Of a stretch of DNA of 64,000 nt, positions 34,506-36,364 are shown piece by piece. Positions within the stretch are counted from its first letter, which is position 1, and every line of letters starts with the position of its first letter. A program made the translations under genes and the position numbers. Below the pieces are notes generated by a model. The model was given only the letters and a program-made list of their open reading frames with translations, ran no database searches and was not told where the DNA came from. The DNA lies in the NCBI GenBank assembly GCA_024280945.1, contig JAMXLO010000129.1, positions 1 through 64,000 on the forward strand, given 5' to 3'. This stretch comes from Acetobacteraceae bacterium. Its GTDB lineage: Bacteria; Pseudomonadota; Alphaproteobacteria; Acetobacterales; Acetobacteraceae.

Positions 34506-35105
34506 TTATCCTCCCTTTGCGGTCGGCACGTCCTTCTGCCTCAGATAATGCCGATGCGCCTTGGCCCGATTGCCGCAGGCGCTCATCGAGCACCAGCGGC
34601 GGTTGCCGCCCTTGCTGTTGTCCAGGAACAGCCAGCCGCAATCCGGATTGGCGCACTGCCGCACCCGCGCGAGCCGACCACGAACCAGCAGGTCCGCGGC
34701 CGACCACAGCACCGGTGCGAGGAGCGCCGCGGCCGAGGGCTCGGGCCATCCGACTTCCCAGCCGGCGGGCCGGACACGCTGACGTGCAGGTGCCGCGGCG
34801 AGCGCCGCGTTGAGCGCGGCCACATCGGGGTCAGCCGGCGCCAGGCCGGATGCCGTCGCGGCAAAGCAGCGATGAATTGTCTCCCGCAGCGCGATCGCCT
34901 CGTCGAGCAGATCGGCCGCTTGGGCAAGCTGCGCGGTCAAGTCCGGGGGCAATCGCTCCGCTTTGGCCGCCCAGCGCAGCAGGTCGCCAGGCTCGTTCAG
35001 CTCCTCGGTCGGGGCCGCAGTGCCGCGCCAATATCGGGTGTTGGCGAAGGCGAGACAGAGATCGTCATCGGGCGCCGGAATGACCGCGCCTGCTCGGTTC
35101 GGCAT
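34506..35105 (-). CDS. CGNR zinc-finger (ABATE domain) transcription regulator
   Basis: A 199-residue putative regulator. The N-terminal ABATE-type domain includes DDDLCLAFANTRYWRG. The C-terminal CGNR zinc finger has ligands C151 and C156 (CANPDCGWLF) and C172 and C177 (RWCSMSACGNRAKAHRHY). The gene diverges from a VOC-family gene, and the 84-bp gap carries a perfect inverted repeat plus a third half-site close to its own start codon, consistent with control of both genes including itself (inference). Confidence 0.88.
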   Translation of the reverse strand: MPNRAGAVIPAPDDDLCLAFANTRYWRGTAAPTEELNEPGDLLRWAAKAERLPPDLTAQLAQAADLLDEAIALRETIHRCFAATASGLAPADPDVAALNAALAAAPARQRVRPAGWEVGWPEPSAAALLAPVLWSAADLLVRGRLARVRQCANPDCGWLFLDNSKGGNRRWCSMSACGNRAKAHRHYLRQKDVPTAKGG

Positions 35106-35109
35106 GGCA

Positions 35110-35131
35110 TCTAACCATATAGAGGGTTGAC
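35110..35131. promoter_or_regulatory. Second, imperfect operator-like site beside the CGNR gene start
   Basis: TCTAACCAT (35110-35118) repeats the half-site of the main operator and lies 4 bp upstream of the CGNR start codon. A poor second half, GGGTTGA, follows. TTGACT at 35127-35132 could be a -35 box for the VOC gene. A protein bound here would block translation initiation or transcription of its own gene. Confidence 0.5.
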
Positions 35132-35154
35132 TTCTCGCCGGCAATGTGGACCAA

Positions 35155-35176
35155 TCTAACCATCAATATGGTTAGA
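35155..35176. promoter_or_regulatory. Perfect 9-4-9 operator palindrome in the CGNR/VOC divergent promoter
   Basis: TCTAACCAT-CAAT-ATGGTTAGA is a perfect inverted repeat of 9-bp arms. It ends directly at the AAAGGAGGA ribosome-binding site of the VOC gene, 13 bp before the ATG. The same half-site recurs at 35110-35118. Position and symmetry fit a dimeric repressor, most simply the CGNR protein. Confidence 0.75.
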
Positions 35177-35189
35177 AAGGAGGAGCTCC

Positions 35190-35567
35190 ATGATCGCCCA
35201 CCTGTCCATCGGCGCCCGGGACATCGCCCGCGCACGCCGCTTCTACGACGCGGCCCTCGAGCCACTCGGCTACACCTGCCTGAGTTCCGATGACGGCTCC
35301 CTGGGCTACGGAGCGAAGGCGGCTGAATACTGGGTCAACCGGACAGATCATCCTGTGGCGGCGGATGACCGCTCAGGTCTGCACATCTGTTTCAGCGCGC
35401 CGGATCGAGACGCGGTCGATGCATTCCACAAGGCGGCGCTGAAGGCGGGCGGCAAGGACAACGGCAAGCCGGGGCTGCGTGCCGCTTATGGCCCCAACTA
35501 CTACGCCGCGTTTGTGCTCGATCCCGACGGCTATCGGATCGAGGCGTGGTGCGGCAAGAAATCCTGA
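35190..35567 (+). CDS. VOC (glyoxalase/bleomycin-resistance) family protein
   Basis: A 125-residue single-domain protein of the vicinal oxygen chelate fold. The opening MIAHLSIGARDIARARRFYD has the metal-ligand His4, and FVLDPDGYRIEAWCGKK has the C-terminal ligand Glu. AFHKAALKAGGKDNGKPGLR is the usual loop. A strong AAAGGAGGA site precedes the ATG. It is controlled by the adjacent palindrome. Members include lyases, dioxygenases and drug-binding proteins; which applies here is unknown. Confidence 0.88.
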   Translation: MIAHLSIGARDIARARRFYDAALEPLGYTCLSSDDGSLGYGAKAAEYWVNRTDHPVAADDRSGLHICFSAPDRDAVDAFHKAALKAGGKDNGKPGLRAAYGPNYYAAFVLDPDGYRIEAWCGKKS

Positions 35568-35641: not shown

Positions 35642-36364
35642 ATGGCACGTGTGGCACTGGTGACAGGCGGGACGCGCGGAATCGGCGCTGCCATCTGCGT
35701 GGCGCTGAAGGAGCAGGGTCGCACAGTGGTTGCGAACTTCGCCGGCAATGAGAAGGCGGCTGCGGCCTTCCATGAAGAGACCGGCCTGCGCGTGGAACAG
35801 TTCGACGTCGGCAAGCTCCAGGAATGCGAGCGGGCAGTGCAGCGCATCACCGAAGAGGTGGGACCGATCGAGGTGCTGGTGAACAACGCCGGCATCACAC
35901 GCGACGGCACGCTGCAGCGCATGTCCCGCGACATGTGGGATGCGGTGATCGACACCAACCTCGGCGCCTGCTTCAACCTGTGCAAGCTCACCTTCCCGGG
36001 CATGCGCGAGCGCAAGTTCGGTCGCATCGTCAATGTCGGCAGCATCAATGGTCAGGCCGGGCAGTACGGACAGGTGAACTATGCCGCCGCCAAGTCGGGC
36101 ATTCACGGCTTCACCAAGGCGCTGGCACAGGAAGGCGCGCGATTCGGCATCACGGTTAACGCCATTGCGCCCGGCTACGTCGATACTGACATGGTGCGCG
36201 CGGTGCCGCACGACGTGCTGGAAAAGATCGTCGCCCGCATTCCGGTGGGCCGGCTGGGCCACGCGTCGGACATCGCTCGCGGCGTGGCATTCCTGACCGC
36301 GGACGAGGCGGAATTCATCACCGGATCGACTTTGTCGATCAATGGCGGTCAGCACATGTACTGA
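35642..36364 (+). CDS. phaB: Acetoacetyl-CoA reductase
   Basis: A 240-residue short-chain dehydrogenase that reduces acetoacetyl-CoA to (R)-3-hydroxybutyryl-CoA for polyhydroxybutyrate. The cofactor motif TGGTRGIG is at residues 8-15 and the triad is S134, Y147, K151. PhaB-specific segments are NNAGITRDGTLQRMSRDMWD, INGQAGQYGQVNYAAAKSG and ending SINGGQHMY. Neither phaA nor phaC is close. A GGGAGGAACC site precedes the ATG. Confidence 0.94.
   Translation: MARVALVTGGTRGIGAAICVALKEQGRTVVANFAGNEKAAAAFHEETGLRVEQFDVGKLQECERAVQRITEEVGPIEVLVNNAGITRDGTLQRMSRDMWDAVIDTNLGACFNLCKLTFPGMRERKFGRIVNVGSINGQAGQYGQVNYAAAKSGIHGFTKALAQEGARFGITVNAIAPGYVDTDMVRAVPHDVLEKIVARIPVGRLGHASDIARGVAFLTADEAEFITGSTLSINGGQHMY

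Follow-up and report, generated by a model that had tools for sequence, protein, structure and literature searches.

The question raised by this locus is which DNA sequence a CGNR zinc-finger protein might read. In the window, by which we mean the whole stretch of 64,000 nucleotides of Acetobacteraceae DNA analysed here, the gene for such a protein is divergently oriented with respect to a gene of the VOC (glyoxalase/bleomycin-resistance) superfamily, and a first-pass annotation had proposed an operator for the regulator between them, composed of an exact palindrome at the ribosome-binding site of the VOC gene and a third half-site close to the start of the CGNR gene. The finger was named in the study of Jann_2411 (PDB 3h0n; PMC2954205), which, in the passages considered, predicts a dimeric, ligand-sensing DNA binder and names no DNA target; a search of the open-access literature, with subscription papers mostly outside its scope, likewise found no CGNR operator or DNA target among the matches listed. 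Beyond what is described for Jann_2411, the present proposal specifies the half-site, the rule for its spacing and its placement at the promoter. The relevant features of the window are the following:

34506 to 35105, minus strand: ABATE-CGNR regulator gene, 199 aa, with its ATG start at 35105-35103
35110 to 35131, no strand assigned: candidate operator O1, TCTAACCAT-ATAG-AGGGTTGAC, a degenerate palindrome with the core TAACC-N8-GGTTGAC
35127 to 35132, plus strand: TTGACT, likely -35 box of the VOC gene, inside the right arm of O1
35155 to 35176, no strand assigned: candidate operator O2, TCTAACCAT-CAAT-ATGGTTAGA, an exact 22-base palindrome with the core TAACC-N8-GGTTA
35178 to 35183, plus strand: AGGAGG, ribosome-binding site of the VOC gene, from the sequence
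35190 to 35567, plus strand: VOC gene, 125 aa, the proposed divergent target

The regulator matches both the ABATE domain (PF07336; E 5.7e-24, 85.6 bits against a cut-off of 24.4) and, at its C-terminus, the zf-CGNR domain (PF11706; E 1.2e-20, 73.4 bits against a cut-off of 24), and its zinc cysteines C151, C156, C172 and C177 are present along with the CGNR motif. An alignment of 43 proteins has no variation at C156, C172, C177 or G178, conservation of at least 90% at C151 and N179, and of less than 90% at R180; it has 13 invariant columns, of which 11 belong to the zinc finger, the ABATE part being variable. The AlphaFold model of the protein (pLDDT 91.7) is predicted to have the fold of Jann_2411, 3h0n being the only PDB match with an E-value below 0.001 in a Foldseek search (E 1.4e-6, TM 0.62/0.66), and the protein also matches 3h0n in sequence (E 7e-4); the two proteins are alike in having the same two domains and, as modelled, the same fold. 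The window gene is the single zf-CGNR match found in its genome. The VOC protein is recovered by the Pfam Glyoxalase model (3.4e-9) and matches PDB chain 4z04_A (E 1.2e-28). Downstream of it, on the same strand, lies a short-chain dehydrogenase gene (35642-36364).

The exact palindrome is present as claimed, at the position of O2: it is followed directly on its 3' side by AAGGAGGAG, adjoins the VOC ribosome-binding site, ends 13 bases before the VOC ATG (35190) and lies over the expected -10/+1 region of the predicted VOC promoter. A search with the O2 pattern gave one match at up to three mismatches, against a mean of 0.01 over 100 shuffles (one of which had a match), and the 6.42 Mb genome has a single TAACC-N8-GGTTA, at 35157-35174 of the window, the same pattern read backwards occurring five times. 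The nine-base half-site TCTAACCAT taken singly is not significant, with 5 matches at up to one mismatch versus 3.8 expected. The third half-site is also present, 4 bases from the CGNR ATG at 35110-35118, but it is not a spare element: it constitutes the left arm of O1, which has the AACC-N8-GGTT core in common with O2 and starts 45 bases away from it. The longer open reading frame permits a TTG extension of the CGNR gene to 35144, which would run through O1. The candidate -10 box of the VOC gene (ACCAAT at 35150-35155, with a 17-base spacer) is weak, matching at 3 of 6 positions, and a generic scan of 34950-35300 for sigma-70 promoters and terminators gave no matches.

Protein searches, supplemented by tblastn within the fetched loci, recovered 25 divergent VOC-CGNR loci including the window; as the 25 proteins fall into 14 clusters at 70% identity, conservation across these loci reflects more than near copies. 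An exact AACC-N8-GGTT core is found in every one of them, as are at least two cores with 8-base spacers when up to one mismatch is allowed in each, and for either count shuffled regions give an expectation of 0.07 loci; two exact cores are found in 15 of the 25 and in none of the shuffled regions. The exact cores have a spacer of 8 (25 loci) or of 0, in the form AACCGGTT (11 loci), and at spacers from 1 to 18 there is none in these loci at any length except 8. Across the set O1 takes the form TAACC-N8-GGTTGACA, with exact AACC-N8-GGTT followed by GA in 25/25, and is always overlapped by a -35-like hexamer (TTGACA in 21 loci, TTGACT in three and TTGATA in one). O2 takes the form TAACC-N8-GGTTA and starts either 37-38 or 43-47 bases downstream of O1, and the -10 boxes are weak throughout, with 2 to 4 matches of 6. 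The first-pass annotation had let its operator depend on the palindrome being conserved upstream of orthologous pairs, and such conservation is what all 25 divergent loci display; it supports the operator reading in an amended form, with two complete candidate operators in place of a palindrome plus a half-site. In several loci of the Reyranella group (L026, L033, L034 and similar ones) O2 is made up of a pair of N8 cores that overlap with an 8-base offset, which might accommodate two dimers side by side.

A palindrome in this position could also be read at the RNA level, as a hairpin in the leader of the VOC transcript that controls translation, and indeed the segment 35140-35200 folds well (z -3.0, one of 200 shuffles being as good), with the stem just before the ribosome-binding site. 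However, while TAAC and GTTA are retained in all 25 loci, the inner two pairs of the stem are retained in only 8 and the outer two in 10, and O1, whose core is the same, coincides in part with the likely -35 box and hence should be outside the VOC transcript. As the full stem is not conserved, we rejected the hairpin, which is extremely improbable.

We consider it very likely that the ABATE/zf-CGNR protein works as a dimer to repress both the divergent VOC gene and its own, acting through O1 and O2 and released by a small molecule. The twofold symmetry of the sites is consistent with a dimeric CGNR protein, and the conserved candidate operators overlap predicted promoter elements of the divergent gene, as befits an autoregulated repressor. 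Each treble-clef zf-CGNR domain would read one TAACC half-site, with one dimer on O1 masking the VOC -35 box next to the CGNR start and a second dimer on O2 masking the VOC -10/+1 region; with 4 bases between O1 and the CGNR start, the protein would mask its own promoter as well. With both dimers bound the VOC and CGNR genes would be off, or the CGNR gene merely low, until the ABATE domain senses a small molecule, which at a guess might be the substrate of the VOC enzyme, and the protein is released. Binding, dimerisation on DNA and the ligand are what we infer from this architecture, and repression is preferred over activation solely on the position of the operators. In view of the weak -10 boxes, repression by promoter overlap would lean on the -35 element. 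These same boxes, together with the lack of a match in the generic promoter scan, lead us to retain as a rival that the CGNR protein binds the sites and activates, or activates one promoter while repressing the other. Some activators also bind at the -35, so that the position of O1 would fit, as would a VOC -10 box as poor as those at activated promoters. On the other hand, O2 over the expected -10/+1 and abutting the ribosome-binding site is in a repressing position, and the -35 hexamer is near consensus in the set as a whole, the most frequent form being TTGACA (21/25), whereas activated promoters seldom need a consensus-like -35; we hence regard activation as unlikely.

The association of the sites with the CGNR gene could be gauged from the 30 best VOC matches in a search of 147 genomes. 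All five VOC homologues with an adjacent CGNR gene (the window included, and all among the 25 divergent loci) have two sites, as opposed to an exact core in 0/25 of those with no CGNR gene in the fetched locus, within 300 upstream bases (252 in one case), and a one-mismatch core in 1/25 at the same depth; most of the unpaired proteins are more distant (43-52% identity to the window VOC), eight being 54-66% identical as against 61-72% for the paired ones, and a very distant CGNR gene could escape the tblastn by which the loci were called unpaired.

The search for the motif upstream of CGNR genes in relatives, which had been suggested from the window, extends the half-site to CGNR genes with other neighbors. 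In the discovery set, CGNR genes without a VOC neighbor have TAACC...GGTTA pairs upstream with spacers of 8-9 or 17-19, and a pair with any spacer from 0 to 25 is present upstream in 34/74 loci versus 0/74 in each of three control zones. The hypothesis was fixed from this set, and 92 new loci were then drawn, of which 63 unique ones came from the window's phylum and the genomes of other loci and 29 from the phylum of a Streptomyces genome; loci were fetched best-scoring first (48 of 50, 30 of 94 and 30 of 95 family matches), and identical zinc-finger stretches were counted once (183 reduced to 162). The upstream zone was defined as 350-750 bases upstream, measured from the zinc finger, so that start annotation plays no part; L042 and L226, with too little upstream sequence, were scored as misses. 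TAACC-N(8,9,17-19)-GGTTA was found upstream in 26 of the 92 new loci (21/63 and 5/29 in the two groups), two of the 92 (L137 and L139) falling within the VOC clade of the protein tree and L139 again being beside a VOC gene, versus 0/276 control zones (Fisher 1e-17). With the proteins clustered at 50% identity the exact site is present in 16/49, versus none in the controls. Within the 63-locus set, allowing spacers of 0-25, there are 21 upstream versus 1, 0 and 0 in the three control zones; among seven control words placed in the same test TTACC is found upstream in 4/63 and GAACC in 1/63, the other five in none, and TAACC/GGTTA is the most enriched pentamer (91 versus 11 expected). The exact site was not found upstream in 66/92 new loci, and 73 of the 166 loci outside the VOC set have no site even with one mismatch allowed; such CGNR genes may have no promoter of their own or a diverged half-site. 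At up to one mismatch, the phyla named among the rows with a site are Pseudomonadota, Actinomycetota, Myxococcota, Acidobacteriota, Verrucomicrobiota and two candidate phyla, with one row each for all but the first two.

The motif is thus, on comparison of sequences, a matter of the CGNR family and not only of the window pair: TAACC is probably the half-site of the family, and a five-letter half-site that recurs before so many related regulators is very probably the sequence that the family reads. Among 62 divergent frames scanned at other CGNR genes (out of 88 non-VOC divergent frames, near copies being mostly dropped and the picking being mechanical, so that some may be wrong) are Abhydrolase_6 (20), Glyoxalase (5), Lipocalin_5 (4), EamA (3) and the branched-chain amino acid permease family (3), a set which would fit local control of small enzymes and transporters.

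When one mismatch is allowed, the spacers of the 166 loci peak at 0 (18 sites), 8-9 (53), 17-19 (112) and 28-30 (19), with control zones at 0 to 0.7 sites per spacer and small upstream excesses also at spacers 1, 6, 7 and 11. Many promoters have two sites, frequently at a distance of 41-45 bases, and promoters with exactly two sites are predominantly uniform (15 short/short, 26 long/long and 4 mixed), while 16 of the 17 loci with at least three sites combine both spacer classes, in many cases with arms in common. A tree of 113 CGNR proteins requires 6 changes of spacer class versus 36.7 when the labels are shuffled (0/500 shuffles as low); this tree was made by a fast method and has long branches, near copies help the clustering of classes, rows with both classes were assigned the better-scoring one, and 5/191 rows under 120 aa and 73/186 that could not be placed clearly in one class were excluded. 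Such tracking would be expected of a family in which TAACC is recognized by the finger and the half-site distance is fixed by the dimer. Comparison across loci shows that promoters of the pair have two sites, that this arrangement is conserved and goes with a neighboring CGNR gene, that the half-site recurs in the family and that the spacers fall into classes. In L074 (1511-1966), from Streptomyces, the CGNR gene likewise faces away from a VOC-family gene, with 18-base spacers, i.e. the same pairing in the other class, and at L137, with two N8 sites and a CGNR protein of the VOC clade, the divergent open frame is an AraC-type regulator and not a VOC gene.

These data bear on the further alternative that a different regulator binds the palindrome, the CGNR protein being a bystander. 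The link between protein and site is drawn from sequence comparison, which leaves room for such a reading, but the half-site lies upstream of CGNR genes with unrelated neighbors such as the Abhydrolase_6 frames, the exact core is missing from all 25 of the VOC promoters with no CGNR gene in the fetched locus, and the site spacing tracks the CGNR tree, making a bystander very improbable.

Local repressors of the TetR and MarR type in divergent promoters typically control a neighboring enzyme or transporter gene, bind palindromic operators at its promoter and let go when a ligand is present. The window pair shares the divergent gene and the palindromic operators with these, and likely also the autoregulation and the ligand release; it differs from them in that the CGNR reader is a treble-clef zinc finger and not a helix-turn-helix, and in that the half-sites are, from one clade to another, about a helical turn closer together or farther apart. 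Divergent autoregulated repressors with twin operators are a common kind of system, and what is new is the DNA word of the zinc-finger family. The half-site and spacing rule make the zf-CGNR family testable and its targets predictable in genomes, and suggest that the word read by the zinc finger stays fixed as the geometry of the dimer evolves.

On the scale of whole genomes it is placement and not abundance that sets these sites apart, since their numbers are not above the control patterns overall. In the genome of the window AACC-N8-GGTT occurs 62 times versus 81 for the backwards pattern; in the absence of an excess a wider regulon in this genome was rejected, and the operator looks private to the VOC/CGNR pair. 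Among the places listed three were examined, the one with ATGG/CCAT arms (C132:15584) lying inside long open frames. In 11 genomes to which earlier loci had led, TAACC-N17..19-GGTTA has 18 sites versus 11 for the backwards pattern (compared by number and not by place), and 12 of the 18 are 350-510 bases upstream of a zinc finger, though 5 of these 12 had suggested the motif; in nine genomes TAACC-N8..9-GGTTA has 10 sites versus 33, and 5 of the 10 are 474-500 bases upstream of a zinc finger, all at previously known loci, so that these tests are only partly independent of the loci that suggested the motif. Of the other five short-spacer sites three are suggestive. Two of them are located, in two genomes, a short way ahead of the ribosome-binding site in SnoaL-like genes that are orthologs of each other (92% identity), and the third belongs to a full copy of O1+O2 in Reyranella soli, which has a GNAT gene on one side and a divergent Ada/AraC-type gene on the other. 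The CGNR-type sites at SnoaL-like and GNAT genes with no zf-CGNR gene in the fetched stretch are:

L248, 1541-1969
L251, 1541-1969
L253, 1547-2221

One of these two Reyranella-type genomes has one zf-CGNR gene and the other two, and the stray sites may represent a small regulon, in which case some CGNR members may act in trans. Taken jointly, it appears likely that the treble-clef finger of zf-CGNR proteins has TAACC as its shared half-site in several phyla, that the half-sites are shifted by about a helical turn (spacers of 8-9, 17-19 and perhaps 28-30) in step with the protein clade, and that some members act in trans on small regulons, an example being the VOC, SnoaL-like and GNAT genes of Reyranella-type bacteria. 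As to distribution, zf-CGNR genes are common, being found in 48/119 sampled genomes of the phylum of Streptomyces and in 38/299 of the window's phylum, and 231 records with a match represent plasmid-borne CGNR genes.
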